Assembly: GCA_020723405.1 (NCBI GenBank)
Contig: DYIY01000026.1
Span: 1 to 41,793 of the forward strand
Direction: 5' to 3'
DNA from: Thiobacillus denitrificans
GTDB lineage: Bacteria; Pseudomonadota; Gammaproteobacteria; Burkholderiales; Thiobacillaceae
DNA: 41,793 bases
Shown here: piece by piece, positions 7,344 through 21,239 of the stretch
Position numbering within the stretch: the stretch's first letter is position 1
Layout: each line of letters starts with the position of its first letter
Translations under genes and position numbers: made by a program
Notes under the pieces: model-generated
What the model was told of the DNA's origin: nothing
Seen by the model: only the letters and a program-made list of their open reading frames with translations
Database searches by the model: none

Positions 7344-8135
7344 TCAGGCCGCCTTCTTCATGTGCTTCTGGTAGAGGAACTCCAGCACCTGGCCGCGCAG
7401 GTGGTGGTACTGGGGGTTCTCCGCCAGCTTGAGCCGGTCCCGGGGCCGGGGCAGGTCCACCTCCAGGATCTCGCCGATGGTGGCGGCGGGGCCGTTGGTC
7501 ATCATGACGATGCGGTCGGAGAGCAGCACGGCTTCATCCACGTCGTGGGTGACCATGAGGGTGGTGGCGTGGGTTTCCTGGACGATGCGCATGAGCTCGT
7601 CCTGGAGGCCGGCCCGGGTGAGGGCGTCCAGAGCGCCGAAGGGTTCGTCCAGGAGCAGCACCTTGGGCTCCATGGCCAGGGCCCGGGCGATACCCACCCG
7701 CTGCTTCATGCCGCCGGAGATCTCGTTGGGGTGCTTGTGCATGGCGTGGGCCAGGCCCACCAGTTCCAGGGCCGCCTGGGTGCGTTCCTTGAGTTTGGCC
7801 TTGCCTTCCTTGGCGCCGAACACCCGTTCCACGGCCAGGTACACGTTGCCGAAGCAGGTGAGCCAGGGCAGCAGGCTGTGGTTCTGGAACACCACTGCCC
7901 GCTCCGGGCCGGGGCCGCTGATCTCCCGCTCCGACAGCAGCAAGATGCCGTCGGTGGGGGTGGTGAGCCCCGCCACCAGGTTGAGCAGGGTGGACTTGCC
8001 GCAGCCCGAGTGGCCGATGAGGGCGATGAACTCGCCCTGCTTCACCGTCAGGTTGATGTCGGTGAGGGCGGTGAACTTGCCCTTCTTGGTGTCGAACACC
8101 ATCTTGGCGTTTTCGATGTGCAAGTAGTTGTGCAT
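7344..8135 (-). CDS. nrtC: Nitrate ABC transporter ATPase (NrtC/NrtD, NasD type)
   Basis: This 263-residue ATP-binding subunit energises nitrate (or nitrite/cyanate) uptake. Walker A is GHSGCGKST (residues about 42-50), the signature is SGGMKQR, and Walker B is VLLLDEPFGALD, with the H-loop in MVTHDVDEA. It is a single-domain ATPase, unlike cyanobacterial NrtC, which carries a fused binding domain; by length it matches NrtD/NasD. It is the last gene of nrtABC, separated from the permease by a 104-base gap filled by a large palindrome. The next gene downstream is convergent (chorismate mutase), 12 bases away. Confidence 0.9.
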   Translation of the reverse strand: MHNYLHIENAKMVFDTKKGKFTALTDINLTVKQGEFIALIGHSGCGKSTLLNLVAGLTTPTDGILLLSEREISGPGPERAVVFQNHSLLPWLTCFGNVYLAVERVFGAKEGKAKLKERTQAALELVGLAHAMHKHPNEISGGMKQRVGIARALAMEPKVLLLDEPFGALDALTRAGLQDELMRIVQETHATTLMVTHDVDEAVLLSDRIVMMTNGPAATIGEILEVDLPRPRDRLKLAENPQYHHLRGQVLEFLYQKHMKKAA

Positions 8136-8239: not shown

Positions 8240-9151
8240 TCACTCGTAGTTGAACCGTTTGGCGACCAGCACCAGGGCCTGTTCCAGGATCAGGCCGACG
8301 ATGCCGACGATGAAGATGGCGATGAGGATGTGTTCCACGTTCAGGTTGTTCCACTCGTCCCACACCCAGAAGCCCAGGCCGGTGCCGCCGGTGAGCATTT
8401 CGGCGGCCACGATCACCAGCCAGGCCACGCCCATGGACAGGCGGATGCCGGTCATCAGGTGGGGCAGCACCGAGGGGAAGAGGATGCGGGTGAAGATCTT
8501 CCATTCGGACAGGTTCAGCACCCGGGCCACGTTCAGGTAGTCCTGGGGCACCCGGGACACGCCGGCGGCGGTGTTGAGGATGATGGGCCAGATGCTGGAG
8601 ATGAAGATCACCCACAGCGAGGCGGGCTCGGTCTCCTTGAACACGTAGAGGCCGATGGGCAGCCAGGCCAGGGGGGAGACCGGGCGCAGCAGGCTGATGA
8701 TGGGGGCGGTCATGCCGGCCAGGAAGCGGAAGCGGCCGATCATGAAGCCGAGGGGGATGCCGATGAGGGCCGCCAAACCGAAACCCGCGCCGACACGGTA
8801 AAGGGAATGGAGGATGTTCCAGCCGATGCCCTTGTCATTGGGGCCGTTGTCGTAGAAGGGGTCGGCGAAGAGTTCCTTGGCCGACTCCCAGGTCTTGGCC
8901 GGGCCGGGCAGGCCCTGGTCGCCGCCGCTGCTGGAAACGATCTGCCAGAGCAGCACGAAGAGAACCAGGCCGATGACCGGCGGCAGGGTGGCGCGGAAAA
9001 AATTTCCGGCGGATTCAAGCCAGGCCTGGCCCCGCTCGGTCTGGAAGAAGGGGGTGGGCCTGGGCTTGGCGGGAGCCGAAGCGGCGGGCACGGTGTCGGG
9101 ATGATTCATGATGTCTTTCAGACTGCCTTCGTTGAATGTCACAGCGCTCAT
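8240..9151 (-). CDS. nrtB: Nitrate ABC transporter permease
   Basis: This 303-residue inner-membrane permease has a cytoplasmic N-terminal tail of about 55 residues, then six hydrophobic segments. The EAA-type loop is around ISSIWPIILNTAAGVSRVPQDYLNVARVLN (residues about 190-220), the contact site for the ATPase. It pairs with the binding protein upstream and the ATPase downstream. The start at 9151 has AGGAG 7 bases upstream on the - strand. It is separated from nrtA by 87 bases containing a hairpin. Confidence 0.9.
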   Translation of the reverse strand: MSAVTFNEGSLKDIMNHPDTVPAASAPAKPRPTPFFQTERGQAWLESAGNFFRATLPPVIGLVLFVLLWQIVSSSGGDQGLPGPAKTWESAKELFADPFYDNGPNDKGIGWNILHSLYRVGAGFGLAALIGIPLGFMIGRFRFLAGMTAPIISLLRPVSPLAWLPIGLYVFKETEPASLWVIFISSIWPIILNTAAGVSRVPQDYLNVARVLNLSEWKIFTRILFPSVLPHLMTGIRLSMGVAWLVIVAAEMLTGGTGLGFWVWDEWNNLNVEHILIAIFIVGIVGLILEQALVLVAKRFNYE

Positions 9152-9238: not shown

Positions 9239-10516
9239 TTACGCTTTCACCTTGAACCCGTCGGCGTAGGCCTTGGGGTTCTTGCCGTCCCAGACCACGC
9301 CGTCCACCAGCTTGTGGCTGCGCATGTCCGACTTGGGCACGGCCACCTTGGCCATGGCAGCGGCGTCCTTGTAGAGCTTCACCTGGTTCACGGCCCGGGC
9401 CACGGCCAGGTAATCCGGATGCTCCTTCAACAGGCCCCAGCGCTTGTGCTGGGTGAGGAACCACATGCCGTCGGACAGGTAGGGGAAGTTCACCGCGCCG
9501 TCGTTGAAGAACTTCATGTAGTTGGCGTCCTGCCATTTCCGGCCGATGCCGTTGTCGTACTGGCCCAGCATGCGGTCTTCGATGACCTCGAATTCGGTGT
9601 TCACGTAGGACTTGCCGGAGATGATTTTCGCCACCTCGGAGCGGTTGCTCATGGTGTCGATGTACTTGGAGGCGTCCAACAGGGCGGCCACCATGGCCCG
9701 GGCCGTGTTGGGATACTTCTGCACGAACTCCAGGGTGGTGCCCAGCACCTTCTCCGGGTGGTCCTGCCAGATATCCTGACTGGTCACGGCGGTGAAGCCG
9801 ATCTTGTCCCAGATGGCCCGGGCGTTCCAGGGCTCGCCCACGCAGTAGCCGTCCATCTTGTCCACCCGCATGTTGGCCACCATCTGGGGCGGCGGCACGG
9901 TGATCACCTTGACATCCCGGAAGGGGTCGATGCCGTAGGCGCCCATCCAGTAGTAAAGCCACATGGCGTGGGTGCCGGTGGGGAAGGTCTGGGCGAAGGT
10001 CCACTCCTTGGGTTCCGCCTTCACCAGCTTGGCCAGACCGGCGCCGTCGGTGACCCCCTTGGCCTTGATCTGGTTGTTGAGAGTGATGGCCTGTCCGTTG
10101 TTGTTGATGCTCATGAGCACGGCCATGTCCTTCCTCGGACCGCCCACCCCCAGTTGCAGGCCGTACATCATGCCGTAGAGCACGTGGGAGGCATCCAGCT
10201 CGCCGTTCACCAGTTTGTCCCGCACCCCCGCCCAGGAGGCTTCCTTGCTGGGAGTGATCTTGATGCCGTACTTCTTGTCGAAGCCCTTCTCGGCAGCGAT
10301 GGCCACGCTGGCGCAGTCGGTCAGGGGGATGAAGCCGATCTTCACTTCCGGCTTTTCCGGGGCGTCGGAACCGGCGGCCCAGGCGGCGCTGCGCACACCC
10401 GGGGGGATGAGGGTCATGATGGCTGCGGCGGCGGACATGCTGGCGGCTTTCTTCAGAAAATCACGTTTTCCATCGTTGACGGGGGCGGCCTCGCCGCCGG
10501 TGGGTAGCTTATCCAT
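9239..10516 (-). CDS. nrtA: Nitrate ABC transporter substrate-binding protein
   Basis: This 425-residue periplasmic protein is of the NrtA/NasF/CynA family. The N-terminus is Tat-like, KRDFLKKAA (residues about 17-25), then a hydrophobic stretch ending in AWA; the usual twin Arg is Lys-Arg here, so Sec or Tat routing is uncertain. Family motifs include KIGFIPLTDCASVAIAAEKG and MDGYCVGEPWNARA. It has an export signal, so it is the transport protein rather than the cytoplasmic sensor NasS. It is the first gene of the operon. Its ribosome site (GGAG) immediately follows the T-run of the leader terminator, and it lies downstream of the NasT-type leader and sigma-54 promoter at 10560-10650. Confidence 0.9.
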   Translation of the reverse strand: MDKLPTGGEAAPVNDGKRDFLKKAASMSAAAAIMTLIPPGVRSAAWAAGSDAPEKPEVKIGFIPLTDCASVAIAAEKGFDKKYGIKITPSKEASWAGVRDKLVNGELDASHVLYGMMYGLQLGVGGPRKDMAVLMSINNNGQAITLNNQIKAKGVTDGAGLAKLVKAEPKEWTFAQTFPTGTHAMWLYYWMGAYGIDPFRDVKVITVPPPQMVANMRVDKMDGYCVGEPWNARAIWDKIGFTAVTSQDIWQDHPEKVLGTTLEFVQKYPNTARAMVAALLDASKYIDTMSNRSEVAKIISGKSYVNTEFEVIEDRMLGQYDNGIGRKWQDANYMKFFNDGAVNFPYLSDGMWFLTQHKRWGLLKEHPDYLAVARAVNQVKLYKDAAAMAKVAVPKSDMRSHKLVDGVVWDGKNPKAYADGFKVKA

Positions 10517-10527
10517 TCCGGAACTCC

Positions 10528-10567
10528 AAAAAAAAAGCGGCGTCCGACCCCGAGGGGTGGGACGCCG
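10528..10567 (-). terminator. Leader terminator of nrtABC, overlaps antiterminator hairpin
   Basis: On the - strand, CGGCGTCC pairs with GGACGCCG around a further hairpin of CACCCCTCGGGGTC, followed by nine T residues and then the ribosome site of nrtA. The 5' arm is shared with the hexaloop hairpin at 10560-10573, so the two structures exclude each other. Confidence 0.85.
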
Positions 10568-10621
10568 TTGTCCAAGTTACATCTGCGAAGGAGCGACATG
10601 GCCGACGCGCCGTTGCGTCGG
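10560..10621 (-). promoter_or_regulatory. NasT (ANTAR) target: two hexaloop hairpins
   Basis: On the - strand the first hairpin is CCGACGC / AACGGC / GCGTCGG (10621 to 10602). The second is GGAC / AACGGC / GTCC (10573 to 10560). Both have six-base loops with A at position 1 and G at position 4, the consensus for ANTAR-domain proteins. The second hairpin uses bases of the terminator's 5' arm, as required for antitermination. A NasT gene lies about 2 kb away. Confidence 0.85.
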
Positions 10622-10634
10622 TCAGTTACTGTTT

Positions 10635-10650
10635 AGCAATGCCCGTGCCA
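10635..10650 (-). promoter_or_regulatory. Sigma-54 promoter of nrtABC
   Basis: On the - strand it reads TGGCACGGGCATTGCT, a near-perfect -24/-12 match (TGGCAC, N5, TTGCT). Transcription would start about 12 bases further down and give a leader with both hexaloop hairpins. NtrC control under nitrogen limitation is inferred; no NtrC site was identified. Confidence 0.9.
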
Positions 10651-10784
10651 GGCCTGAAAATGATGCGTAATCTATTGATATACAACGGTATTTATATCGA
10701 TCCGGCGAGCATGGCCGGGTAAGGCTTGCGACAAATGCACTGTTGCTGTGCCGAATCGGACCCGCGTTCTCCCTTTCGGGGCAC

Positions 10785-11219
10785 CTACTGCCGTTCGTAG
10801 TCGTCCAGCACCAGGCGAAGCTCGGCCTGCCAGGCGAGCAGGAAAGCCCGGGCTTCGCCGTCGAACTCCCCCAGCCAGTGGGCGAAGTCATCGCTCAGCA
10901 CCGTCACCCGGCCCTCCCGCTCCATAAGGGTCAGGCGCAGGGGCAGCAGGTTGAGCAGCCGGGCGTCGGCAGCTTCCGCCCAGCGCACGGCAGTCTCGTT
11001 GCCGATGAACAGGATGCGCACGTGGGGGTCTTCGAAGCCCCGCTTCACCAGGGCGCTGTCGATGGGCTGCACCTTCACCAGCACCAGGTCGCGGTTGGCG
11101 GCCGCCAGGGTCAGGTCGTCCACCGCCTGGCGCAAGGTGGCGGGCTTGCTGGCGGACAGGGGCTCGGCCCAGGCAGGGGAGCCCAGGAGGATGGCCAAGA
11201 GCAGGATCCAGTGCTTCAC
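10785..11219 (-). CDS. DUF302 family secreted protein, second of a pair
   Basis: A 144-residue protein with an 18-residue signal peptide (MKHWILLLAILLGSPAWA), so exported. The remainder resembles DUF302 proteins, with RLTLMEREGRVTVLSDDF in place of the usual nucleotide-like beta hairpin. Start is GTG 11219, overlapping the stop of the preceding DUF302 gene by GTGA, so the two are coupled. The function is unknown. The pair sits between the nrtA leader and the RAYT/NasT block on the same strand, but nrtA has its own sigma-54 promoter. Confidence 0.7.
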   Translation of the reverse strand: MKHWILLLAILLGSPAWAEPLSASKPATLRQAVDDLTLAAANRDLVLVKVQPIDSALVKRGFEDPHVRILFIGNETAVRWAEAADARLLNLLPLRLTLMEREGRVTVLSDDFAHWLGEFDGEARAFLLAWQAELRLVLDDYERQ

Positions 11220-11680
11220 AGGCTGGCCTCCTCCAGGATGGCCAGGTAGTCCTGTTTGAGGCTCAGGCATTCCTCGTGGAGAGCCGGGTTGTGCATGGTG
11301 AGGGAGACCCAGGCCGGGTTCACGGCCATCAGGTCCACCCCGGAGGGCGTCTCCACCAGGGTGATGCGGCAGGGCATCATCTGGGCCGCCCGGGCGTCCA
11401 GGCGCAGGGCCTTGTCCATGCGGGCGAAGTTGCAGAAATAGAAGAGACGCACCGAGCGCACTTCCTGGGCATAGGGCACCAGACGGCTGTCGATGGCCTG
11501 CTGGCGCACGAAGGTGTAATTGTGGCTGGTCACCGCCTGGTTCAGGGCGGCCATGGCCTGATCCATGGATTTGCCCGGCAACGTGGCGGTCAGGATCATG
11601 GGCTCCGGATCGGCAGCCCGGACCAGGCCGGCCCAGAGGATAAGGGTCAGCCAGATGAAGCGGAGAAGGACGATACGCAT
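11216..11680 (-). CDS. DUF302 family secreted protein, first of a pair
   Basis: A 154-residue protein with an N-terminal signal peptide of about 22 residues (ending VRA) and the DUF302 core, including CRITLVETPSGVDLMAVNPAW near residues 107-127. The start at 11680 has a perfect AGGAGG four bases upstream on the - strand; a start at 11710 is less likely. DUF302 proteins bind small ligands or are of unknown role, and this one may act in the periplasm. Two Cys residues (near FCNF and EEC) could form a disulfide. Confidence 0.75.
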   Translation of the reverse strand: MRIVLLRFIWLTLILWAGLVRAADPEPMILTATLPGKSMDQAMAALNQAVTSHNYTFVRQQAIDSRLVPYAQEVRSVRLFYFCNFARMDKALRLDARAAQMMPCRITLVETPSGVDLMAVNPAWVSLTMHNPALHEECLSLKQDYLAILEEASL

Positions 11681-11822
11681 GGGGCCTCCTGGGCAGTGTG
11701 CCTGAAGCAAAGGGAGTCAGCCTCCCATGCAAGGTTTACAGCAAATCCCGGGCCAATGCGATGGTGAAAAATCGTCGTCGGCCTGATGCGAAGACGCGTC
11801 GTGGCGCCTCTCGCGACCTCGC

Positions 11823-11904
11823 GTAGGGTGTGGTGAGCAAAGCGAACCGCACCGAACCCACGGGGCAAAGGCCGATGCGGTTCGCTGCGCTCACCACATC
11901 CTAC
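11823..11904. repeat. REP pair (BIME-like) upstream of RAYT
   Basis: GTAGGGTGTGGTGAGCAAAG..CCGCACC at the left and its inverted relative GATGCGG..CTCACCACATCCTAC at the right face each other across about 20 bases. The same element recurs at 12544-12574 and, in variant form, at 17410-17478. The rest of the 303-base gap 11681-11983 shows no gene. Confidence 0.75.
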
Positions 11905-11983
11905 CCACTACCCACCGCCCCCCTTGCACATCCCCCCGCCATGAATTCGAATCCCCATACAAACAAAAGCGAGGGAGGCCCCC

Positions 11984-12523
11984 ATGGCCAACTATCGTCG
12001 CCCCCACGCGGCGGGCGCCACCTGGTTCTTCACCGTCGCCCTGGCGGAGCGCCGGGGAACCCAGCTGTTAGTGGAGCATGTGGCCGAACTGCGCACCGCC
12101 ATTCGCACGGTCATGGCCCGGCACCCCTTCCAGGTGGACGCCATGGTGGTCCTGCCGGAACACCTGCATTGCCTCTGGACCCTGCCCCCGGAGGACGGCC
12201 ATTTCGCCACCCGCTGGAGTCTTATCAAAGCCAACTTCTCCCGTGCCTTGCCGGTGGATGAAACCCGCTCCGCCAGTCGGTTGCAGCGGGGCGAACGGGG
12301 CATCTGGCAGCACCCCTTCTGGGAGCACCTGATCCGGGATGAAACGGATTTCGCCCGCCACGTCGATTACATCCATTGGAACCCGGTCAAACATGGCCAC
12401 GTGTCACGGGCGGGCGATTGGCCCTATTCGTCCTTCCACCGATATGTTCGGGAAGGAAAGTTGCCGGCGGATTGGGGCGGGGTGGGCGAAACGGGTGGGG
12501 ATTTTGGGGAACCCCGGGGGTGA
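11984..12523 (+). CDS. REP-associated tyrosine transposase (RAYT)
   Basis: A 179-residue HUH single-strand transposase of the IS200/IS605-like Y1 superfamily. It has the family N-terminal YRRPHAAGATWFFTV and the HUH metal motif in VLPEHLHCLW (residues about 54-63). The downstream helix holds the catalytic Tyr region with FARHVDYIHWNPVKHG and YSSFHRYV, which is characteristic of RAYTs. It is flanked by REP sequences at 11823-11904 and 12544-12574, which such enzymes recognise and are thought to spread. It lies inside the nitrate assimilation region, separating the DUF302 pair from nasT, and is on the opposite strand to both. Confidence 0.9.
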   Translation: MANYRRPHAAGATWFFTVALAERRGTQLLVEHVAELRTAIRTVMARHPFQVDAMVVLPEHLHCLWTLPPEDGHFATRWSLIKANFSRALPVDETRSASRLQRGERGIWQHPFWEHLIRDETDFARHVDYIHWNPVKHGHVSRAGDWPYSSFHRYVREGKLPADWGGVGETGGDFGEPRG

Positions 12524-12543
12524 ATGGAGGGCGTGGGCGTTGG

Positions 12544-12574
12544 GTAGGATGTGGTGAGCGTAGCGAACCGCATC
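12544..12574. repeat. REP element downstream of RAYT
   Basis: GTAGGATGTGGTGAGC then GTAGCGAACCGCATC, matching the left REP (11823) in the same orientation. It lies between the RAYT stop and the nasT stop. Confidence 0.75.
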
Positions 12575-12589
12575 AGGGTGCCACGTCGC

Positions 12590-13201
12590 TTACCCGGGCA
12601 TGATGTCCAGCAGCAGCTTCGCCACTTCGGCCAGGCGTTTGCGGTGGGCCATGGCCTCCCGGCGCAGGGCCTGGTAGGCGGCTTCTTCGGAGAGGGACTG
12701 CACCTTCATGAGGCGGCGCTTGGCCTGCTCGATGAGTTTGTGTTCGCGCAGTTCCTCCCGGGCCCGCAGCATGTCGTCGCGCATGGCCTGCCAGGCTTCG
12801 AACTGGACCCGGGCCAGTTCCAGGATGGGTTGCAGGCGCTCGCTCTTGACGCCGTCCACCACGTAGGCGGCCACGCCGGCGGTCACCGCCGAGCGCATGG
12901 CCTCCCGGGAATCGTCCTGGCTGAACATGACGATGGGTCGGGGTGAACGCTCACTCATCACCACGATCTGCTCCAGCGTGTCGCGGCTGGGGGAATCCGT
13001 GTCCATGATGATGGCGTCGGGTTCGATCTCCTCCACCCAGCGGGGCAGATCGATGGCCCGATCCAGGCGGCCCACCAGATGGTGGCCGGGGTTGGTGCTG
13101 GCCAGGGCGGCCATGAGGTCGTCCAGGCGGCGGCGGGATTGGCCGATCACCAGGATCTTCAGGGCATCCGCAACGGGGGCTTCCGGGGAGGGGGGGGTCA
13201 T
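12590..13201 (-). CDS. nasT: NasT-type antiterminator (receiver-like plus ANTAR domain)
   Basis: This 203-residue cytoplasmic RNA-binding regulator has residues about 14-125 as a receiver-like domain (LKILVIGQSRRRLDDLM and DAIIMDTDS, with Asp at 67 and 69). Residues about 140-196 form the ANTAR domain (QAKRRLMKVQSLSEEAAYQ, then REAMAHRKRLAEVA). NasT binds hexaloop hairpins in nas leader RNA and allows readthrough when nitrate is present and its partner NasS releases it. Matching hairpins occur in the nrtA and nirB leaders. No NasS gene is in the window. It is the last gene of the nirB-nirD-nasA block. I use ATG 13201; earlier codons do not resemble the family. Confidence 0.9.
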   Translation of the reverse strand: MTPPSPEAPVADALKILVIGQSRRRLDDLMAALASTNPGHHLVGRLDRAIDLPRWVEEIEPDAIIMDTDSPSRDTLEQIVVMSERSPRPIVMFSQDDSREAMRSAVTAGVAAYVVDGVKSERLQPILELARVQFEAWQAMRDDMLRAREELREHKLIEQAKRRLMKVQSLSEEAAYQALRREAMAHRKRLAEVAKLLLDIMPG

Positions 13202-13301
13202 GGGTGGTCTGAGGGGCGTGCCGGTCGGGCAGGGACTACGATAGCCCCCGGACCTTCGGAAGGCCAGGCCACGCCCGGTGATCGTAGCGCGCCACCCGGC
13301 A

Positions 13302-15074
13302 TCAGTGGCTATCCGGCACCACACCCAGTTGGGGCATCTCGGCCAGGCCCGTTTCCCGGGCGTGTTCGACGAAGCCCTTGTTGCGCCAGAAGAAGGCGCC
13401 GGGCATGGTGGTGGGAATGACCAGCACGTAGAACAAAGCCCGGCCCAGGATGGCGGCGGCGAGGGCCAGGGGGGCCAGCAGCAGGAAGGCGGCGGGACTC
13501 GCCGCTGCCAGCAGGGCAATGTTCAGGGCCAGGACGAAGCTCAGGGCCAGCAGGGTGTTGCGCAGGCCGTAGGCGTGACCGTAGCGGGTGGTCTGCTCGT
13601 AGTGGGAGGCGGCGCCTTCGTTGCCCCGGGCCTGCATGTCCCGGGCGTGGAAGAAGAGGCCCAGCCCTTCCAGGGCGAAGCCCAGGGCCATGAGGGCTCC
13701 CAGCAGGTTGGCCGGTCCGGCGGCCAGGGTGCCTTGTGCCAGGCCCAGCAGGCCCAGCAGCAGGCCGCCCAGGGCCAGGCCGGTGCCGGCGAAGCTGGTG
13801 CCGGTCTGCCAGTGGTCCCAGAAGGGCCGGGCCTTGATGCGGTAGAGCTTGACCATGTAGTAGCCGCCGAAGCCCATGCCCACCAGCCCGGCCAGCATGG
13901 CCGTCGGCTTCAGCAGGTCGGCGAAGGGGAAGCCCGGAAACAGGGTGAAGAAGGTGGTGCCCGCCAGGCCGGCGAAGAACAGGGACACCCCGGCGATCTC
14001 CCGGCTCACCGGCGACAGGCGCCAGTTGTTGAAGCCGCGATAGAAGCGCAGGGGTTTTCCAAGGTGCATGTTGAGCTTGAACAGGCCGAAGCTCATCAGA
14101 GCCAGCAGCACCAGCAGGGTGGCCGGGGTGTGGAGGGGGGCGAAGGCGCCGGACAGGAGCATCAGGAAGGCGCCCATCACGGACTGGGCGCTCAGGGTGA
14201 AGGCAACGTGGGCGTTCTCGTGGGAGCCCAGCAGTTTCTTCAGGTTCCATTGCCGCTGAAAGCCGTGTTTGGGGTCGAGCTGGGGCCGGAATTCGCCTGT
14301 TCCGTCGTCCTTGTGGTACTTCAAAGGCATGCTGTCCACCCGCAGCATGTCCCGCTGGGTGGCCCGGGTCTGCTGGAAACGCACGTTGGGATGGGTGATG
14401 TCGCTGCGGGGAAAGCCGGGAATCTCCGTCCGGGCCTGGCTGCGGCCTTCCGGGACGTTCTCGATGACGCCGAAATCCAGGGCCTTGCCCAGGCAGGCGG
14501 AGACGCAGGCGGGCTTCAAGCCGACTTCCAGGCGGTCCACGCACATGTTGCACTTGGACACCTGGCCCTTGATGGGGTCCAGTTGCGGCGCGTTGTAGGG
14601 ACAGACCCAGGTGCAGTAGCCGCAGCCGAAGCAGATGTCCGGGTCCTGCAACACCGCGCCGTATTCGGCGAACTTGGTGTAGGCCCGGGTGGGGCAACCC
14701 TTCAGACAGACCGGGTTGTCGCAGTGGTTGCAGGCCATGGAGATGTTGAGGCGCTGGGTGTTGGGGTAGGTGCCGCCCTCGACGAAGCCCACCGACCGGA
14801 AGGCGATGTGGGCCGGGTTGTCGTTCTTTTCCGAGCAGGCCGCCTCGCAGGCATGGCAGGCGATGCAGTTGTCGGCGTTGAAAAAGAAGCCGTGCTGCTT
14901 ATAGCGGTTGGGGTTGGGGCCGATGGCCTCGTCGCCGTTGATGCGCAGGCTCTGGCCGCGCAGTTCGTGGTCTGCCGGGACGGTCTCGATGGACTTGCCG
15001 TAGCGGTTGTGTTCCAGGCTGACCGGGTCCTTCAGCTTGGCGTATTCGGGTTCGTTGGGGCGGATTGGGAACAT
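13302..15074 (-). CDS. DmsB/DmsC-like fusion: four-cluster ferredoxin joined to a membrane anchor
   Basis: This 590-residue protein has two parts. Residues about 60-215 hold four cysteine motifs of a DmsB/NrfC-type ferredoxin: CIACHACEAAC, CNHCDNPVCLKGC, CFGCGYCTWVC and CNMC...CVSAC, enough for four 4Fe-4S clusters. Residues about 290-570 carry eight or so hydrophobic helices resembling the DmsC quinol-oxidising anchor. It would oxidise quinol in the membrane and pass electrons to the adjacent NasA, which lacks a reductase domain. That coupling is inferred from position. It is not a known Nas subunit; NrfD-type anchors are an alternative. Confidence 0.8.
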   Translation of the reverse strand: MFPIRPNEPEYAKLKDPVSLEHNRYGKSIETVPADHELRGQSLRINGDEAIGPNPNRYKQHGFFFNADNCIACHACEAACSEKNDNPAHIAFRSVGFVEGGTYPNTQRLNISMACNHCDNPVCLKGCPTRAYTKFAEYGAVLQDPDICFGCGYCTWVCPYNAPQLDPIKGQVSKCNMCVDRLEVGLKPACVSACLGKALDFGVIENVPEGRSQARTEIPGFPRSDITHPNVRFQQTRATQRDMLRVDSMPLKYHKDDGTGEFRPQLDPKHGFQRQWNLKKLLGSHENAHVAFTLSAQSVMGAFLMLLSGAFAPLHTPATLLVLLALMSFGLFKLNMHLGKPLRFYRGFNNWRLSPVSREIAGVSLFFAGLAGTTFFTLFPGFPFADLLKPTAMLAGLVGMGFGGYYMVKLYRIKARPFWDHWQTGTSFAGTGLALGGLLLGLLGLAQGTLAAGPANLLGALMALGFALEGLGLFFHARDMQARGNEGAASHYEQTTRYGHAYGLRNTLLALSFVLALNIALLAAASPAAFLLLAPLALAAAILGRALFYVLVIPTTMPGAFFWRNKGFVEHARETGLAEMPQLGVVPDSH

Positions 15075-15113
15075 GGCAGCCTCTGGTTCAGGTCACACCC
15101 CGGCGGAGGGGTG

Positions 15114-15147
15114 CTCCCCCCTTTGCAAAAGGGGGGCTGGGGGGGAT
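15114..15147. repeat. C-rich inverted repeat between nasA and the Fe-S/anchor gene
   Basis: CTCCCCCCTTT pairs with AAAGGGGGG around TGCAA, followed by CTGGGGGGGATTT. The pattern resembles extragenic C-rich repeats common in betaproteobacterial genomes. It occupies the 104-base gap between two nitrate assimilation genes. Confidence 0.6.
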
Positions 15148-15178
15148 TTGAGGGCGGTGGGGTGCGGGGGCCGGCGCA

Positions 15179-17383
15179 TCAGAATTTCCGCATTTCCATG
15201 GAGAGCCGGGCCGCCGCTGCCTGGTCGGCGATCCGTTCGATGCGGATGGCGGACTGCTTGTAGGCGGGCTGGCGCGAGTGGGGGTCCAGCAGGCCCAGGG
15301 TCAGGCGGTTGGCACAGTCGTGGAAGTGGAAAGGCAGGAAGACCATGTTCTTGGGCACCCGTTGGGTCGGCTGGGCCATGGCCACCGCATCCCCCCGGCG
15401 GGACACCATGCGCACGTATTCGCCGCGCCGGATGCCCAGTTCCACGGCGAGATCGGGGTTGATCTCGATGAAGGGGATGGGGCTGAACTTGTTGTTGTTG
15501 CCGATCTTTCCGGTCTTGGTCCTGCCGTGCCAGTGCTCGATGAGGCGGCCGGTGTTGAGCCAGATGGGGAACAGCTCGTCCGGCACCTCGTTGTTGTCGA
15601 TGAAGGGCAGGGGGATCAGCTTGGCCCGGCCGTCCGGGTAGCTGAAGGTGCCGTCCACGGTGTAGATGCGCTTGCCACCCCGGGGCGGGGCCTCGCCTCG
15701 CTCCCGCTGTTCGAGGGTGTATGGCCACTGGATGCCCCGGTTCTCCTCCAGCAGCTCATGGGTCATGCCGGAGATGTCGGCCAGGCGGCCTCTGGAGAGG
15801 CGGCCCATTTCCAGGAAGATGTCGCCGGCCTTTTCCGGGAAGGAGAGCTTGCCTTCCTTGTTGAAGCGTTCGGCCACCCGGTTGAATATCCACAGGTCCG
15901 GCCTGGCCTCGCCCGGGGGTTGGATCACCGGCTTCACCCGGTTGATGCGCCGCTCGGTGTTGGTCATGACCCCGTCCTTTTCCGCCCAGGTGCCGGCGGG
16001 CAGGTAGACGTGGGCGTACTGGGCACTTTCCGTATCCTGGTAGCAATCCTGCACGCAGCAGAATTCCAGTTGCTCCATGGCCCGGCGGATGCGGGCGGTG
16101 TTGGGCAGGGAGGACATGGGGTTGGTGGCAATGAGCCACATGCCCTTGATCTGACCCGCCTCCATGGCCTGGTAGATGTCAGTCTGGTACATGCCCCGCT
16201 TCTTGGGGAAGAACTCCGGGTCCACGTTCCAGAAGCGGGCGATCTCCTCCCGATGCTCGGGCACTTCCAGGTAACGGAAGTTGGGCAGGCCGGAGCAGGA
16301 GGACCATTCCCGGGTGCCCATGGCATTGCACTGGCCGGTGATGGACAGGCTGGTGCCGCCGGGCTTGCCGATGTTGCCGGTGATGAGGGCCAGGTTGTTG
16401 ATGCCCACCACGCCGTCGGAGCCGTGGGTGCTCTGGTTGATGCCCATGGTCCAGATCTGCATGGCCGCCTTGGCCTTGGCAAAGGTGCGGGCCACCACCC
16501 GGATGGTGTCCTCGTCGATGCCGCAAACCTTGGAGGCGGTCACCGGATCCCATTTCTCCACTTCCGCGCGCAGGGCCTCGACGCCCTGGGTGTTGGCGTC
16601 GATGTAGCGCTGGTCGTGAAGGTTCTCCTTGAAGATCACGTGCATGAGGGCGTTTTGCAGCACCACGTCGGTGCCCGGCGTGATGGCCAGGTGGATGTGG
16701 GCGTTCTGGGCCAGCATGGTGACGCGCGGATCGACGACGATGAGGGGGAAGCCGCGCTTCTCCTGGGCTTCCTTCATGCGCCAGTAGATGATGGGGTGCT
16801 GCTCGGGCAGGTTGGAACCCCAGGCGATGAGGCAGTCGGTGTGCTCGAAATCCTCGTAGCAGCCCGGGGGGCCGTCGGAGCCGAAGGAGCGCTTGTAGCC
16901 GGATACGGCGGAGGACATGCACAGGGTGGTGTTGCCGTCGTAATTGTTGGTGCCGATGAGGCCCCGGGTGAGCTTGCCCAGGGTGTAGAACTCCTCGGTG
17001 AGCATCTGGCCGGTGGAAATGATGGCGAAGGAATCCGGGCCGGATTTAGCCTGGATGCGGCGGATCTCATCGTGCAGCCTGTCCAGGGCCGTATCCCAGT
17101 CGCTGCGCTGCCAGCCGTCGTGCCAGCGTTCCCGCATCTTGGGATAGAGGCCCCGCCCGGCCGAGGTGAACAGTTCATGCTCGAAGATGCCCTTGAGGCA
17201 CAGCTTGCCCCGGTTCACGTCGGCATCGGCCACCCCCCGGGAGGCCACGGCCTGCCCCCCCTGGTTGAAGCCCACTTCGATGGAACAACCCGTGGAGCAG
17301 TAGCCGCAGGTGGCGTACCGCCATTCCACCACGCCCTTGTCGGCGATCTTGATGGGGTTTTTCTTGCTACGTCCGAACAGCAT
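15179..17383 (-). CDS. nasA: Assimilatory nitrate reductase catalytic subunit
   Basis: This 734-residue cytoplasmic molybdoenzyme reduces nitrate to nitrite for assimilation. The N-terminal 4Fe-4S motif is CGYCSTGC with a fourth Cys in GKLCLKG (residues about 27-63). The Mo-ligand region is TTLCMSSAVSGYKRSFG (about 149-165), typical of Nas/Nap enzymes, and there is no signal peptide. At 734 residues it lacks the C-terminal BFD-like 2Fe-2S domain present in some NasA proteins, so it needs a separate electron donor; the neighbouring DmsB/DmsC-like fusion is the candidate. The gap to nirD (110 bases) holds a REP element. Confidence 0.9.
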   Translation of the reverse strand: MLFGRSKKNPIKIADKGVVEWRYATCGYCSTGCSIEVGFNQGGQAVASRGVADADVNRGKLCLKGIFEHELFTSAGRGLYPKMRERWHDGWQRSDWDTALDRLHDEIRRIQAKSGPDSFAIISTGQMLTEEFYTLGKLTRGLIGTNNYDGNTTLCMSSAVSGYKRSFGSDGPPGCYEDFEHTDCLIAWGSNLPEQHPIIYWRMKEAQEKRGFPLIVVDPRVTMLAQNAHIHLAITPGTDVVLQNALMHVIFKENLHDQRYIDANTQGVEALRAEVEKWDPVTASKVCGIDEDTIRVVARTFAKAKAAMQIWTMGINQSTHGSDGVVGINNLALITGNIGKPGGTSLSITGQCNAMGTREWSSCSGLPNFRYLEVPEHREEIARFWNVDPEFFPKKRGMYQTDIYQAMEAGQIKGMWLIATNPMSSLPNTARIRRAMEQLEFCCVQDCYQDTESAQYAHVYLPAGTWAEKDGVMTNTERRINRVKPVIQPPGEARPDLWIFNRVAERFNKEGKLSFPEKAGDIFLEMGRLSRGRLADISGMTHELLEENRGIQWPYTLEQRERGEAPPRGGKRIYTVDGTFSYPDGRAKLIPLPFIDNNEVPDELFPIWLNTGRLIEHWHGRTKTGKIGNNNKFSPIPFIEINPDLAVELGIRRGEYVRMVSRRGDAVAMAQPTQRVPKNMVFLPFHFHDCANRLTLGLLDPHSRQPAYKQSAIRIERIADQAAAARLSMEMRKF

Positions 17384-17409
17384 GATTCATGTCCTTGCAG
17401 AGAGCGGGC

Positions 17410-17478
17410 GGTGCGCTTCGCTGCGCTCAGCACACCCTACGGAGGGCTGTGGGATGGGATGAGCAACGCGAAGCGCAT
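17410..17478. repeat. REP-like inverted pair between nasA and nirD
   Basis: GGTGCGCTTCGCTGCGCTCA with ACACCCTAC, then an inverted partner GGATGAGCAACGCGAAGCGC. The core TTCGCTGCGCTCA matches the REPs beside the RAYT gene (11885-11893). Confidence 0.65.
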
Positions 17479-17493
17479 GGGGGGGTGTCCGGT

Positions 17494-17823
17494 TCATGCC
17501 TGGGCCACCCGCAGATACACCCGGCCGCCTTCCACCTTGGTGGCGTAGGTGCGGGCGCAGCCCTTGTCCGGCAGCACCGCTTCGCCGCTGGCGAGATCGA
17601 TCTTCCAACTGTGCAGGGGACAGGTGACCTGGCCGCCGTGGACGATGCCCTGGGACAGGGGGCCGCCCCGGTGGGGGCATTTGTCGCGCACGGCGTGGAT
17701 GTGGTCGGTGACGGTGCGGAAGACGGCGATGCGGTTGAGCATGTCGTCGTGCTCCAGCTCCACGATCCGGCAGCCCTGGCGGGGGATGTCTTCGAGGCTG
17801 GCGATGGGGATCCAGTCGTTCAT
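17494..17823 (-). CDS. nirD: Nitrite reductase small subunit (Rieske-type)
   Basis: A 109-residue protein carrying one Rieske-like 2Fe-2S fold: CPHRGGPLSQG (Cys/His pair, residues 49-59) and VTCPLHSWKIDLASG (second Cys/His). NirD partners NirB to reduce nitrite to ammonium. Start ATG 17823, 12 bases after the nirB stop, so the two are co-transcribed. The family often lacks a functional cluster, but here both CxH motifs are intact. Confidence 0.9.
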   Translation of the reverse strand: MNDWIPIASLEDIPRQGCRIVELEHDDMLNRIAVFRTVTDHIHAVRDKCPHRGGPLSQGIVHGGQVTCPLHSWKIDLASGEAVLPDKGCARTYATKVEGGRVYLRVAQA

Positions 17824-17834
17824 GGTCGTGTCCT

Positions 17835-20342
17835 TCAGGCGGGAACGGGGTTGGCAACGATGCGGATGGGCTGGAACTCGTGGGCGGCGGTGCCCTCGGC
17901 CCGTTCCTTCCAGGGGTCGATCTGGGCGAACTGCTGGCCGAACTTGAAGCGCTCGTAGAGGGCGGCCCGGCCGGCCGCGTCATCGACGATCTTCGCCTTG
18001 ATGTGGTTCAAGCCCACCCGTTCCACCCAGGGGGCGGTGCGTTCCAGGTAGTGGGCTTCTTCCCGGTAGAGCTGGGTGTAGGCGCCGCAGTACTCCATGA
18101 CCTGGGCTTCGGTCTCCACCCGGCAGAGCAGGTCGGTGACCCGTACCTTGATGCCGCCGTTGCCGCCCACGTGCAGTTCGTAGCCGGATTCCACGCACAC
18201 CACGCCGAAGTCCTTGATGGTGGCTTCGGCGCAGTTGCGCGGGCAGCCGGACACCGCCAGCTTGAACTTGTGGGGCATCCAGGAACCCCAGGTGAGCTGC
18301 TCCAGCTTGACCCCCAGTCCGGTGGAGTCCTGGGTGCCGAAGCGGCACCACTGGCTGCCCACGCAGGTCTTCACGGTACGCAGGGCCTTGCCGTAGGCGT
18401 GGCCGGAGACGAAGCCGGCATCCGACAGGTCCTTCCACATGGCCGGCAGGTCTTCCTTCTTCACCCCGAACAGGTCGATGCGCTGGCCGCCGGTGACCTT
18501 CACCTCGGGCACCTTGAACTTCTCCGCCACGTCGGCGATGGCGCGCAGCTCCCTGGGATTGGTGAGGCCGCCCCACATGCGCGGCACCACGGAGAAGCTG
18601 CCGTCCTTCTGGATGTTGCCGTGGGCCCGTTCGTTGATGAAGCGGGACTGGGCGTCGTCCTGGTATTCGGCGGGCCAGCGGGCCAGCAGGTAGTAGTTCA
18701 CCGCCGGGCGGCAGGTGGCGCAGCCGTCCGGGGTGCTCCATTCCAGGGCCTGGAACACCGCGTCCATGGATTTCAGTTCCTGGTCGCGGATGGCGGCGAT
18801 GACGTCGTCGTGGCTGTGCTCGGTGCACTTGCACAGGGGCTTCTTGCTGGGGGCGGCGGAGTAGTTGCCGCCCACGGTATGGGCCAGCACCGCTTCCACC
18901 AGGCCGGTGCAGGAACCGCAGGAGGCGGAGGCCTTGGTGTGGGCCTTCACCTCGTCCAGGGTGAACAGCTTCAGGTCGCGGATGGCGGCCACGATGGTGC
19001 CCTTGCACACCCCGTTGCAGCCGCAGATCTCCGCCGTGTCGGGCAGGGCGGCCACCCGCTCGGCGGGGCCGTGGCCCGAGTCGCCCAGGTGATGCTGGCC
19101 GAACAGGATGGTCTTGCGGAACTGGGAGATGTCGGTGCCTTCCCGCAGCAGGTCGAAGTACCAGGTGCCGTCGATGGTGTCGCCGTAGATGCAGGCGCCC
19201 ACCAGCTTGTTGTCCTTGATCACCAGCTTCTTGTAGGTGCCGGCGGCGGCGTCGGAGAACACCAGGGATTCGGTGTCCTGGCCGCCCATGAAATCCCCGG
19301 CGGAGAACAGGTCGATGCCGGTGACCTTCAGCTTGGTGGAGGTCAGGGAGCCCTGGTAGCGGGCCACGCCGTGTTCCGCCAGGTGGTTGGCGCAGACCTT
19401 GGCCTGCTCGAACAGGGGGGCCACCAGGCCGTAGGCCACGCCCCGGTGGCTGACGCATTCGCCCACGGCGTAGATGCGCGGGTCGGTGGCGCTTTGCAGG
19501 GTGTCGGTGACCACCAGGCCCCGGTTGCACAGCAGGCCGGCGGATTCCGCCAGGGCCGTGTTGGGGCGGATGCCCACGGCCATCACCACCAGATCGGCGG
19601 GGACTTCCGTGCCGTCCTTGAAACGCAGGGCGCCGACCCGCTGCTCTCCGCCCCCCTCGGGGGAGGGGCTGGGGGAGAGGGAAGCAGGCAGAATTTCCGC
19701 CGTCTGTTTCTCCAGCAGGAACTTCAGGCCCTTGGCCTCCAGGCTTTGTTGCAACAGCCGGGCCGCCGGTTCGTCCAGTTGCCGCTCCAGCAGCCAGGGG
19801 GCGATGTGCACCACGGACACTTCCATGCCCCGGGCCTTCAGGCCGTTGGCCGCCTCCAGGCCCAGCAGGCCGCCGCCGATGACCACCGCATGCCGGTGAC
19901 TGGTGGAGGCTTCGATCATCCGCTCCACGTCGGCGATGTCGCGGAAACCCACCACCCCCTCCAGATCGGCACCGGGCACGGGCAGGATGAAGGGCTTGGA
20001 GCCGGTGGCCAGCAGCAGCCGGTCATAGCCGGCGATGATCTTCCCGCCGTCACCGTCGTCGGCTTCCACCACCCGGCGGGTGCGGTCGATCTTCACCACC
20101 CGTTTGCCCGTGTGCAGGGTGATGCCATGGGCCGCGTACCAGTCCCGGCCGTTCAGGATGATCTGCTCCACCGTCTGTTCCCCGGCCAGCACCGGCGACA
20201 GCATGATGCGGTTGTAATTGGGGTGCGGTTCGTCGCCGAACACGGTGATGTCGTATTGCTCCGGAGCCGCCTTCAGCAGCTCCTCCAGGGTGCGGATGCC
20301 GGCCATGCCGTTGCCCACCAGAACCAGTTTCATGCGTGACAT
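17835..20342 (-). CDS. nirB: NADH-dependent nitrite reductase large subunit
   Basis: This 835-residue cytoplasmic enzyme reduces nitrite to ammonium. Domains in order: FAD/NAD(P) oxidoreductase (VLVGNGMAGIRTLEEL at the N-terminus, GGGLLGLEAANGLK near 145); two BFD-like 2Fe-2S motifs (CGCNGVC...CGSC and CKC...CATC); then the sulfite/nitrite reductase repeats with siroheme/4Fe-4S cysteines TCVGSQWC and CPRNCAEA. I chose ATG 20342, which has GAGG 8 bases upstream; MKLVLVGNG at 20333 is an alternative. A short in-frame repeat lies at 19644-19682. It heads an operon driven by the sigma-54 promoter at 20450. Confidence 0.9.
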   Translation of the reverse strand: MSRMKLVLVGNGMAGIRTLEELLKAAPEQYDITVFGDEPHPNYNRIMLSPVLAGEQTVEQIILNGRDWYAAHGITLHTGKRVVKIDRTRRVVEADDGDGGKIIAGYDRLLLATGSKPFILPVPGADLEGVVGFRDIADVERMIEASTSHRHAVVIGGGLLGLEAANGLKARGMEVSVVHIAPWLLERQLDEPAARLLQQSLEAKGLKFLLEKQTAEILPASLSPSPSPEGGGEQRVGALRFKDGTEVPADLVVMAVGIRPNTALAESAGLLCNRGLVVTDTLQSATDPRIYAVGECVSHRGVAYGLVAPLFEQAKVCANHLAEHGVARYQGSLTSTKLKVTGIDLFSAGDFMGGQDTESLVFSDAAAGTYKKLVIKDNKLVGACIYGDTIDGTWYFDLLREGTDISQFRKTILFGQHHLGDSGHGPAERVAALPDTAEICGCNGVCKGTIVAAIRDLKLFTLDEVKAHTKASASCGSCTGLVEAVLAHTVGGNYSAAPSKKPLCKCTEHSHDDVIAAIRDQELKSMDAVFQALEWSTPDGCATCRPAVNYYLLARWPAEYQDDAQSRFINERAHGNIQKDGSFSVVPRMWGGLTNPRELRAIADVAEKFKVPEVKVTGGQRIDLFGVKKEDLPAMWKDLSDAGFVSGHAYGKALRTVKTCVGSQWCRFGTQDSTGLGVKLEQLTWGSWMPHKFKLAVSGCPRNCAEATIKDFGVVCVESGYELHVGGNGGIKVRVTDLLCRVETEAQVMEYCGAYTQLYREEAHYLERTAPWVERVGLNHIKAKIVDDAAGRAALYERFKFGQQFAQIDPWKERAEGTAAHEFQPIRIVANPVPA
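19644..19682. repeat. C/G-rich palindromic repeat inserted in frame within nirB
   Basis: The core CCCCCTCGGGGGAGGGG is flanked by CTCTCCGC and GGGGAGAGG, and it encodes SLSPSPSPEGGGEQ on the nirB strand. This Ser/Pro/Gly stretch is unlike the surrounding enzyme sequence and falls in a surface turn of the NAD/FAD domain. It appears to be an extragenic-type repeat that landed without breaking the frame. Confidence 0.65.
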
Positions 20343-20367
20343 ATCGAACACCTCAATTGCACGGGGC

Positions 20368-20408
20368 AAAAAAAAACGGCGTCCGCCCCGGAAGGGGAGC
20401 GGACGCCG
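20368..20408 (-). terminator. Leader terminator of nirB operon
   Basis: On the - strand CGGCGTCCGCTCCCC pairs with GGGGCGGACGCCG around TTCC, followed by nine T residues. It is the same design as the nrtA leader terminator and shares its 5' arm with the AACGGC hairpin at 20401-20414. Confidence 0.85.
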
Positions 20409-20439
20409 TTGTCCAAAGATCGCTTGGCTAGTTAGCCTG
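20401..20439 (-). promoter_or_regulatory. NasT (ANTAR) target in the nirB leader
   Basis: GGAC / AACGGC / GTCC (20414 to 20401) repeats the second hairpin of the nrtA leader exactly and overlaps the terminator. The first hairpin is weaker: GGCT/AGCC around AACT (about 20437 to 20426), or GGC/GCC with hexaloop TAACTA, which does not fit the A1/G4 rule. Regulation by NasT is inferred from the shared second hairpin. Confidence 0.75.
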
Positions 20440-20449
20440 GTCGAGCTTT

Positions 20450-20465
20450 AGCAATGGCCGTGCCA
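20450..20465 (-). promoter_or_regulatory. Sigma-54 promoter of the nirB operon
   Basis: On the - strand TGGCACGGCCATTGCT, a near-perfect -24/-12 element, 1-base different from that of nrtA. The stretch 20466-20591 up to narL holds no gene. Confidence 0.9.
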
Positions 20466-20591
20466 GTCGGCAAAAAACGGGTAAATGACGGTGGAATGGC
20501 GTGATTGGCGCCAGACCCGGGTAGGGTCCGCCCGCCCGGCGCACCGCTTGGGTGCGTCAACGCACCGGGAATGCCCCTACCCCGAGCAGGC

Positions 20592-21239
20592 TCACTTCTT
20601 CTTGTCCACCGCCCACACGGCGGCTTCCACCCGGGATCGGAGGTTGAGCTTGCGCAGCAGGTGTTTGACGTGGACCTTCACGGTGCCCTCGGCGATACCC
20701 AGTTCCCGGGCGATGAGCTTGTTGCTCTTGCATTGGGCGATGTGTTCCAGGATGCGGCTTTCCTGTTCGGTGAGGCCCGCCTGGTCCGGGTCCCGGGGGC
20801 GGTTCTCCTCCCGCAGGGAGTGGGCCAGCAGGCGGGTCAGGCGTTCGCTCAGGGTGACCTGGCCGGCGGCGGCCTCCTTCAGTTTGGCCAGCAGGTCTTC
20901 GGGCTCCATCTCCTTGAGCAGGTAGCCGTCGGCCCCGGCACGCAGGGCGGCCACCAGGTCGGAGGCTTCGTCGGACACCGTGAGCATGACCACCCGGCTG
21001 TCCATGCCCCAGGACTTGATGACCTTGAGCACTTCGATGCCGTTCATGGGCTTCATGTTCATGTCCAGCAGGATCATGTCCGGCTGGAGCTTCTGGGCCA
21101 GCTCCATGCCATCCGGGCCGTTGGAGGCCTCCCCCACCACGGTGAAGTCGCCGGCCATGTCCACCAGTTGCAGCACCGCCTTGCGGAACAGGGGATGGTC
21201 GTCGATGACCAGCAGGGTCTGGGGATGATCGGGCTTCAT
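20592..21239 (-). CDS. narL: Nitrate/nitrite response regulator NarL
   Basis: A 215-residue two-component regulator. The receiver (residues about 8-125) has the acidic pair in VIDDHPLFRKA and the phosphoacceptor Asp in ILLDMNMKP. A LuxR-type helix-turn-helix follows (LTEQESRILEHIAQCKSNKLIARELGI then TVKVHVKHLLRKL, residues 150-200). It is activated by the adjacent NarX, whose stop overlaps its start, and would control the nar and narK genes. It is not in the nas operon, whose sigma-54 promoter is divergent in function though on the same strand. Confidence 0.9.
   Translation of the reverse strand: MKPDHPQTLLVIDDHPLFRKAVLQLVDMAGDFTVVGEASNGPDGMELAQKLQPDMILLDMNMKPMNGIEVLKVIKSWGMDSRVVMLTVSDEASDLVAALRAGADGYLLKEMEPEDLLAKLKEAAAGQVTLSERLTRLLAHSLREENRPRDPDQAGLTEQESRILEHIAQCKSNKLIARELGIAEGTVKVHVKHLLRKLNLRSRVEAAVWAVDKKK

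Follow-up and report, generated by a model that had tools for sequence, protein, structure and literature searches.

A predicted NasT regulon in Thiobacillus denitrificans with a dual-hexaloop leader at nrtA and a single hexaloop at nirB

The window analyzed here is a whole contig of 41,793 nucleotides (DYIY01000026.1, hereafter C30) of the Thiobacillus denitrificans assembly GCA_020723405.1, a genome of 4.15 Mb in 42 contigs that is 99.3% complete. It carries two operons, both on the minus strand. One is headed by nrtA, followed by an nrtB-like permease gene and nrtD; the other is headed by nirB, followed by nirD, a molybdoenzyme gene, a gene for an iron-sulfur (Fe-S)/DmsC-type fusion protein and, in last position as the original prediction had it, nasT. 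The genes of each operon follow one another on one strand with 11 to about 110 bases between them, which suggests co-transcription. Each operon starts with a sigma-54 promoter and a short leader in which a hexaloop hairpin, P2, overlaps an intrinsic terminator, and the nrtA leader alone carries a further hexaloop hairpin, P1 (Table 1). We consider it likely that these elements form a NasT/ANTAR antitermination regulon with two leaders under sigma-54 and NtrC, in which nirB would be controlled through P2 alone.

Table 1. Features of the two leaders and operons in the window.
Feature	Position	Strand	Basis
sigma-54 (-24/-12) promoter of nrtA, TGGCACGGGCATTGCT	10635..10650	-	exact match
P1 hexaloop hairpin of nrtA leader, CCGACGC-AACGGC-GCGTCGG	10602..10621	-	sequence; covariation
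P2 hexaloop hairpin of nrtA leader, GGAC-AACGGC-GTCC	10560..10573	-	sequence pattern
intrinsic terminator of nrtA leader with T9, 5' arm common with P2	10528..10567	-	sequence, fold
NtrC-like site GCACTGTTGCTGTGC	10737..10751	.	pattern match; starts 101 nucleotides upstream of nrtA promoter
sigma-54 (-24/-12) promoter of nirB, TGGCACGGCCATTGCT	20450..20465	-	exact match
5'-end hairpin of nirB leader, GGCT-AACT-AGCC, not A1/G4, in P1's place	20426..20437	-	fold
P2 hexaloop hairpin of nirB leader, GGAC-AACGGC-GTCC, the leader's only A1/G4 hexaloop	20401..20414	-	sequence pattern
intrinsic terminator of nirB leader with T9, 5' arm common with P2	20368..20410	-	sequence, fold
NtrC-like site GCACCGCTTGGGTGC	20541..20555	.	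pattern match; starts 90 nucleotides upstream of nirB promoter
nrtA, nitrate-binding protein, N-terminus (GKRDFLKKAAS) of twin-arginine translocation (Tat)-like type	9239..10516	-	PF13379, 355.8 bits
nrtB-like permease	8240..9151	-	open reading frame; named from position and sequence, without family search
nrtD, nitrate ATP-binding cassette (ABC) transporter ATPase	7344..8135	-	TIGR01184, 352.9 bits, over cut-off
nirB, nitrite reductase large subunit	17835..20342	-	TIGR02374, 942.2 bits, over cut-off
nirD-like Rieske small subunit	17494..17823	-	open reading frame MNDWIPIASLEDIP...CPHRGG...CPLHSW; named from sequence and position, without family search
molybdopterin oxidoreductase, probable assimilatory nitrate reductase (nasA)	15179..17383	-	Pfam
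Fe-S + DmsC-type membrane-anchor fusion, probable electron-transfer subunit	13302..15074	-	PF13247, PF04976
nasT, pseudo-receiver + ANTAR protein	12590..13201	-	PF03861, 52.1 bits (cut-off 27.3)

The sigma-54 pattern TGGCACGNNNWTTGCT is matched exactly at both operon heads (10635-10650 and 20450-20465). With at most one mismatch it has three matches in the window against 0.11 expected, a number reached in 0 of 100 shuffles. A one-mismatch site of this kind lies on the minus strand upstream of a small DUF302 gene (site 11740-11755, gene 11216-11680). The genome encodes both the sigma-54 gene rpoN and ntrC, the latter at 696 bits, over the equivalog cut-off. Upstream of each promoter stands a match to GCAC-N7-GTGC, which we took to be the NtrC consensus; within the window alone such matches are within chance (3 found, 1.62 expected). 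For comparison, NirB and NrtA loci were collected from 61 genomes (30 loci each), and a leader was recognized by a sigma-54 pattern, P2 and T5, which gave a leader in 22 of the 30 NirB loci and 24 of the 30 NrtA loci. A perfect NtrC-like site was present upstream of 16 of these 22 nirB leaders, mostly at 67-68 bases, and of 11 of the 24 nrtA leaders, at 90-122 bases, against 0.7% of composition-shuffled regions. All four elements of a sigma-54/NtrC operon that we looked for were found (-24/-12 promoter, NtrC-like sites, rpoN and ntrC), and the excess of NtrC-like sites over chance among the relatives thus supports, together with the promoters and the two genes, the ammonium half of the original prediction, namely that expression requires low ammonium through NtrC.

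The motif GGACAACGGCGTCC is found exactly in both leaders (10560-10573 and 20401-20414), and with at most two mismatches it has three matches against 0.60 expected, three being reached in 2 of 100 shuffles. Nine-base T runs close both terminators (10528-10536 in the nrtA leader and 20368-20376 in the nirB leader). The terminator is the predicted fold in both cases, with whole-leader energies of -43.9 and -36.0 kcal/mol, and P2 alone is predicted at -4.8 and -5.6 kcal/mol. In these predicted folds the terminator takes the 3' half of P2, and the two structures are mutually exclusive. For P2 and terminator together, a covariance model was built on an alignment of 32 leaders out of 46 from this genome and its relatives, the window's own two among them. 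Only two strong matches were obtained in the genome, the nrtA and nirB leaders (68.1 and 67.3 bits), the next one scoring 19.5 bits (expectation value, E, of 2.8) once reverse-strand images of the two had been set aside, so that the description as a two-leader system holds at that sensitivity. AACGGC hairpins alone are not rare, as another one with a stem of 5 base pairs (bp) lies inside nirB at 20153 and one inside a gene of locus L037. The C8 locus of the same genome, where the sigma-54 pattern is matched exactly and another NrtA-like protein is encoded, was rejected as a further candidate: the covariance model found no such leader there, and its only AACGGC hairpin lies inside a gene.

These results agree with what the original prediction had said of both operon heads: a sigma-54 promoter, then the GGAC/AACGGC/GTCC hairpin with a loop fitting the ANTAR rule of A at position 1 and G at position 4 (A1/G4), overlapping the 5' arm of a terminator with nine T residues. 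They are all present on the minus strand. The covariance model of P2 and terminator gave matches in 52 of 121 genomes, and the AACGGC loop, whose loss would have counted against the reading, is conserved in homologous leaders. The two leaders are not equivalent, P1 being present at nrtA only.

This P1 of the nrtA leader, an A1/G4 hexaloop that had been overlooked, has a 7-bp stem and an AACGGC loop, and is separated by a 28-nucleotide linker from the 4-bp P2 with the same loop. An ANTAR target has been defined as two hairpins of at least 3 bp with A1 and G4 in each loop (accessible part of PMC3369931), and the nrtA leader, having P1 besides P2, is therefore a standard dual-hexaloop target. In an alignment of 13 of the 24 nrtA leaders, chosen because they aligned well and have P1 close to the 5' end, five of the seven P1 pairs were altered on both sides, and 97.2% of the cells of P1 and P2 were paired. 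The covariation score of the stem was reached by 0 of 500 shuffles and the count of both-sided pairs by 6 of 500. The P1 loops of the relatives include AACGGC, AAAGGC, AATGGC, AAGGGC and others, with A1 and G4 kept in 23 of 24. The linker between P1 and P2 falls into two groups among the relatives (L108-L135). In one it measures 16-56 bases and P1 sits closer to the 5' end; in the other (L111, L117, L122, L124) it has 2-4 bases and P1 adjoins P2. Two alternative P1 candidates are seen in each of L129, L130 and L135. Ten of the 24 nrtA leaders, all of them among the 17 whose P1 is near the 5' end, have CTCCTT in the linker (10574-10601 in the window), complementary over four to five bases to the nrtA ribosome site GGAG(T) (10524-10527), which could be a second, translational layer of control.

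The nirB leader of the window has P2 only: upstream of it, no A1/G4 hexaloop hairpin of at least 3 bp was found. The transcription start being assumed 26 bases past the first base of the promoter, about 25 bases separate it from P2. The hairpin at the 5' end of this leader was rejected as a disguised P1, as its loop varies in length and sequence among relatives (by eye TAACTA, TTCCTC, CTCTC, GCAC and others) and its stem is without covariation; it probably merely protects or insulates the RNA. We aligned 20 of the 22 nirB leaders, excluding L080 and L086 for their insertions. The 5' arm of P2, GGAC, which lies outside the terminator, and the AA at the start of its loop were identical in all 20, and most of the 25 preceding bases varied. 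L080 and L086 have insertions of about 170 and 80 bases, with repeats in L080, between promoter and P2, and their P2 and terminator are intact despite them. Since P1 has been reported as obligatory for EutV in vivo (in the available text of PMC8934654), the nirB leader looks like a natural single-hexaloop leader.

The survey of relatives gave the same contrast. A canonical P1 (A1/G4 loop, stem of at least 4 bp, G-U allowed) was present in 1 of the 22 nirB leaders vs 23 of the 24 nrtA leaders, and with 3-bp stems allowed in 2 vs 23. A second set of leaders, collected after a model search over 121 genomes, had it in 0 of 7 nirB and 6 of 6 nrtA leaders. The pooled counts are thus 1/29 and 29/30 (Fisher p 1.5e-14, ignoring kinship), the 29 nirB leaders spanning six genera of one family. 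Within genomes having both leaders, 17 of 19 combined an nrtA leader with P1 and a nirB leader without it; the two exceptions were G012, with a candidate P1 in the nirB leader L096, and G017, with the nrtA loop AAAAGC. A stricter scan, in which a perfect terminator arm was also demanded, retained 14 nirB and 20 nrtA leaders, and P1 was present in one and 19 of them, respectively.

Eight NirB and six NrtA loci had no leader by our rule. By eye, the eight NirB loci, of which L101 is near a contig end, comprised L106, which keeps P2 without P1 and has its U-run broken up, L102, with hexaloops and no P2, and others in which none was seen. Left out of the nirB and nrtA counts of the second set were L195 (no gene in view), the first leader of L187, L189, L194, L197 (a weak P1 candidate), L202 (cut by a contig end) and L203 (no leader). 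Leaders with P2 and without P1 also occur before a globin-like gene (L187) and a narK-like gene (L194), presumptive names given from the first residues. A similarly strict scan, applied to 22 NirB loci from another family, recovered no leader and missed even one already known there; a looser scan gave two dual-hexaloop nirB leaders in one genus (L215 and L216), and L210 of that family has P2 without T-run and without P1. As two-hexaloop nirB leaders exist elsewhere (L215, L216 and the Rfam P11 consensus discussed below), the one-hexaloop state may be derived.

NasT is the single ANTAR protein of the genome. Its closest named records, at 73-77% identity, come from metagenome genomes labelled Hydrogenophilales or Betaproteobacteria, and it has a pseudo-receiver and an ANTAR domain and aligns with the Rv1626 (1s8n), EutV, NasR and AmiR chains. 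The receiver has GQ in place of the acidic residues of Rv1626 and D in place of the usual lysine, which makes ordinary phosphorylation of NasT unlikely. In all 11 genomes of the genus, this one included, in which a NasT of at least 69% identity shares a contig with NirB, the nasT gene is located downstream of nirB in the same orientation. The two are on different contigs in G005, G017, G019 and G022, as well as in G011 and G016, which have another NasT, about 40% identical, and whose nirB leaders are still of the one-hexaloop type.

In other systems NasS holds NasT and nitrate frees it, loss of nasS in Paracoccus gave nitrate-independent (constitutive) expression, and NasS is closely related to NrtA, the export signal being what distinguishes them, as stated in the accessible part of PMC3795266. 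A cytoplasmic NasS was not found in this 99.3% complete genome, either with PF13379 or with a NasS query. Its five NMT1_2 proteins all have export-like N-termini by eye, of Tat type in NrtA and the C8 protein and of Sec type in those of C41, C29 and C5, and the NasS query matched only NrtA and the exported C8 protein. Two signal-less controls of NasS type match PF13379 at 223 and 318 bits, so that a NasS should have been detected. The same query (E 1e-8) was run on ten further genomes of the genus, each with at least 95% completeness and a close NasT (G003, G007, G008, G010, G012, G015, G017, G019, G020 and G022). One match was obtained in each, two in G010 and G020, and, judged by eye, the N-terminus of each of the 12 proteins contains a Tat-like stretch. 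Signal-less genes were found in G011 and G030, where an NrtA/NasS-like gene follows nrtD, and in G039, where a nasS-like gene follows nasT. The other half of the original prediction, expression only in the presence of nitrate, is thus not supported, given that no NasS was found and that the loss of nasS made Paracoccus independent of nitrate. Taken as a whole, that interpretation stands for the promoters, the antiterminator, the single NasT reader and the conservation of the loop, and not for the equivalence of the leaders or the requirement for nitrate.

The surroundings of the two operons have features of their own. The nasA-type molybdoenzyme (15179-17383) scores 520 bits with the Fdh-alpha model and 463 bits with NasC, both below cut-off; the probable nitrate reductase (13302-17383) is formate-dehydrogenase-like and partnered by the Fe-S/DmsC membrane-anchor fusion. 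The relatives L040/L143 and L207 have a different NasA in the same operon slot, 33-35% identical by best alignment. A gene for a transposase of the tyrosine type associated with repetitive extragenic palindromes (REP) lies between nasT and nrtA (11984-12523; NF047646, 193.7 bits), flanked by inverted palindrome-like repeats (11874-11925 and 12523-12574) that are 85% complementary, and positions 11823-12574 resemble a whole REP/transposase unit. Directly upstream of nirB are a receiver-LuxR regulator and a histidine kinase (20592-26677).

Rfam at gathering scores had no match in the window and none in 17 loci of relatives. At relaxed scores, narK RNA reached 30.4 and 21.6 bits (gathering score 43.2) and P11, which we take to be NalA RNA, 30.1 and 28.3 bits (gathering score 70). 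At nirB the match was rejected as below cut-off and not specific, since unrelated families such as ctRNA_p42d (28.9 bits), ar7 and others score in the same range. Among 16 loci of relatives, at E 0.01, P11 matched only L125, L132 and L196, and narK RNA matched L132. The consensus sequences of narK RNA (RF03032) and P11 (RF00625) have, as the nrtA leader, a sigma-54-like TGGCAC/GGCAC...TGC and two A1/G4 hexaloops, and both entries thus look like ANTAR leaders. The P11 hexaloops are AACGAU and AAAGGC, whereas the nirB leader described here has one hexaloop. A full-text search for "narK RNA" had no match in a partial collection and says little, and literature searches found no report of single-hexaloop nirB leaders.

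The nirBD leader of Pseudomonas aeruginosa and P. putida is known as NalA (Romeo 2012 and Nie 2024, as cited in the available part of PMC12830290). The locus studied here resembles it in its sigma-54/NtrC promoter, its nirB leader with a terminator and its predicted antitermination by NasT, and differs in that NasS-NasT has been reported in Pseudomonas (PMC3795266), whereas no NasS was found here. It also shares with the Paracoccus NasS-NasT system (PMC3795266) a pseudo-receiver/ANTAR protein and nitrate assimilation genes, again without a NasS found in this genome. The nrtA leader is like the EutV, NasR and AmiR targets, as far as described in the accessible text of PMC3369931 and PMC8934654, in having two A1/G4 hairpins with P2 overlapping the terminator; its 28-nucleotide linker and the lack of P1 in the nirB leader set the two leaders apart from them. 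The logic of NtrC, sigma-54, leader terminator, NasT and nirB is therefore already known, as published for NalA. Here an otherwise ordinary, well-described kind of regulon has a conserved one-hexaloop variant at one of its two leaders, and its sensor is missing from what was detected.

In the mechanism that we propose, phosphorylated NtrC at the upstream sites would activate the sigma-54 promoters of nrtA and nirB when ammonium is low. By default, each short leader would fold into its strong terminator; NasT would bind and hold P2, thereby occupying the 5' arm of the terminator, and the polymerase would read on into nrtABD or nirBD-nasA-nasT. With nasT in last position downstream of the nirB leader, NasT would raise its own expression. 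It would be offered the standard pair of P1 and P2 at nrtA and P2 only at nirB, where it should thus act through a single hexaloop. As for the nitrate input, a constitutive NasT and a partner other than NasS are both possible. We think that nirB is still a NasT target, in view of the invariant GGAC/AA, the P2 kept in L106 and the single ANTAR protein available as a reader. One idea, given this position of nasT, is that a less demanding nirB leader could let NasT start building up, although the one-hexaloop nirB leaders of G011 and G016, with nasT elsewhere, indicate that this would not be the whole reason. More tentatively, the nirB leaders of the family could be natural single-hexaloop ANTAR antiterminators, the same NasT reading a dual leader as well, without NasS, a possibility that we take seriously and would not yet assert.

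Several points weigh against this reading. EutV required both hexaloops in vivo, and a one-hexaloop leader may respond weakly or not at all. The genomes are related, so the P1 counts are not independent. In the nirB leader L096, GCTTA-ATCGCC-TGAGT is a candidate A1/G4 hexaloop with three Watson-Crick and two G-U pairs, exclusive with the 5' hairpin of that leader; the loop AAAAGC of the nrtA leader L123 is without G4; and the nirB locus L102, of the same family, has hexaloops, GCGCC-AACGGC-GGTGC being nearest the promoter, with no recognizable GGAC P2 or U-run. There is so little variation in the pairs of the nirB 5' hairpin that its lack of covariation is weak evidence. The conservation of P2 is partly circular, as the pattern used to pick leaders requires part of GGAC-A..G; since positions that it left loose (A or G, C or T, any base) are nevertheless fixed, it is not wholly so. 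Finally, a NasS could be too diverged for PF13379 or encoded in the missing 0.7% of the genome.

Among alternative explanations, that the hairpins are due to chance or are plain terminator palindromes seems hardly credible: the genome is GC-rich, the P2 loop overlaps the terminator arm and AACGGC hairpins occur inside nirB and an L037 gene, but P1 covaries, the model has two strong matches, the promoter and P2 counts exceed those of shuffles, and about 1.1 P1-like leaders would be expected from shuffled regions where 19 were seen among 20 nrtA leaders. It is unlikely, though less so, that NasT has ceased to act on the nirB leader and that its P2 is a relic in a plain terminator, nirB expression then depending on its sigma-54 promoter with basal readthrough, or on the adjoining NarL-type regulator. 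The missing P1 in 28 of 29 nirB leaders, obligatory for EutV in vivo according to the part of PMC8934654 available, and the receiver-LuxR regulator and kinase next to nirB would fit this; yet all 20 aligned nirB leaders have the same GGACAA, located at the edge of the terminator or outside it, where most of the preceding bases vary, and L106 keeps P2 despite its broken U-run.

Two other explanations concern the signal. NasT could be controlled by nitrate through a non-dedicated sensor, such as NrtA retained in the cytoplasm, or through a diverged NasS. The close kinship of NasS and NrtA, differing by the export signal (PMC3795266, available part), and the signal-less genes after nrtD in G011 and G030 and after nasT in G039 lend themselves to this, but the Tat- or Sec-like N-termini of all five NMT1_2 proteins and the strong PF13379 matches of the signal-less controls make it rather improbable. 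We find it possible, if doubtful, that NasT is always active, so that the regulon would answer to ammonium/NtrC alone and the leaders would be a feedback device on the level of NasT. The absence of a detected NasS, the constitutive Paracoccus nasS mutant (same source), the receiver pocket that looks unusable and the position of nasT downstream of nirB in 11 of 11 genomes are consistent with it; on the other hand, a conserved terminator would be pure cost, and other inputs are possible, as cyclic diguanylate (c-di-GMP) inhibits the NasT of P. putida (cited in the accessible part of PMC12830290).

The authors of the EutV-RNA work reported that both hexaloops are needed in vivo though the dimer contacts one at a time, and they redefined the minimal site as one hexaloop and asked how common single sites are (PMC8934654, in the part available). 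One NasT facing one- and two-hexaloop leaders in the same genome bears on why ANTAR proteins need two, and the occurrence of the one-hexaloop nirB leader in six genera makes this question testable with native sequences. Likewise, with NasS missing, the step at which nitrate is sensed in the standard model can be put directly to the test. If the more tentative reading, with NasT working without NasS, is true, the pair of leaders would be a ready-made natural test of the purpose of P1, and the NasT regulon of this bacterium would respond to nitrogen limitation and to feedback from NasT, not to nitrate.

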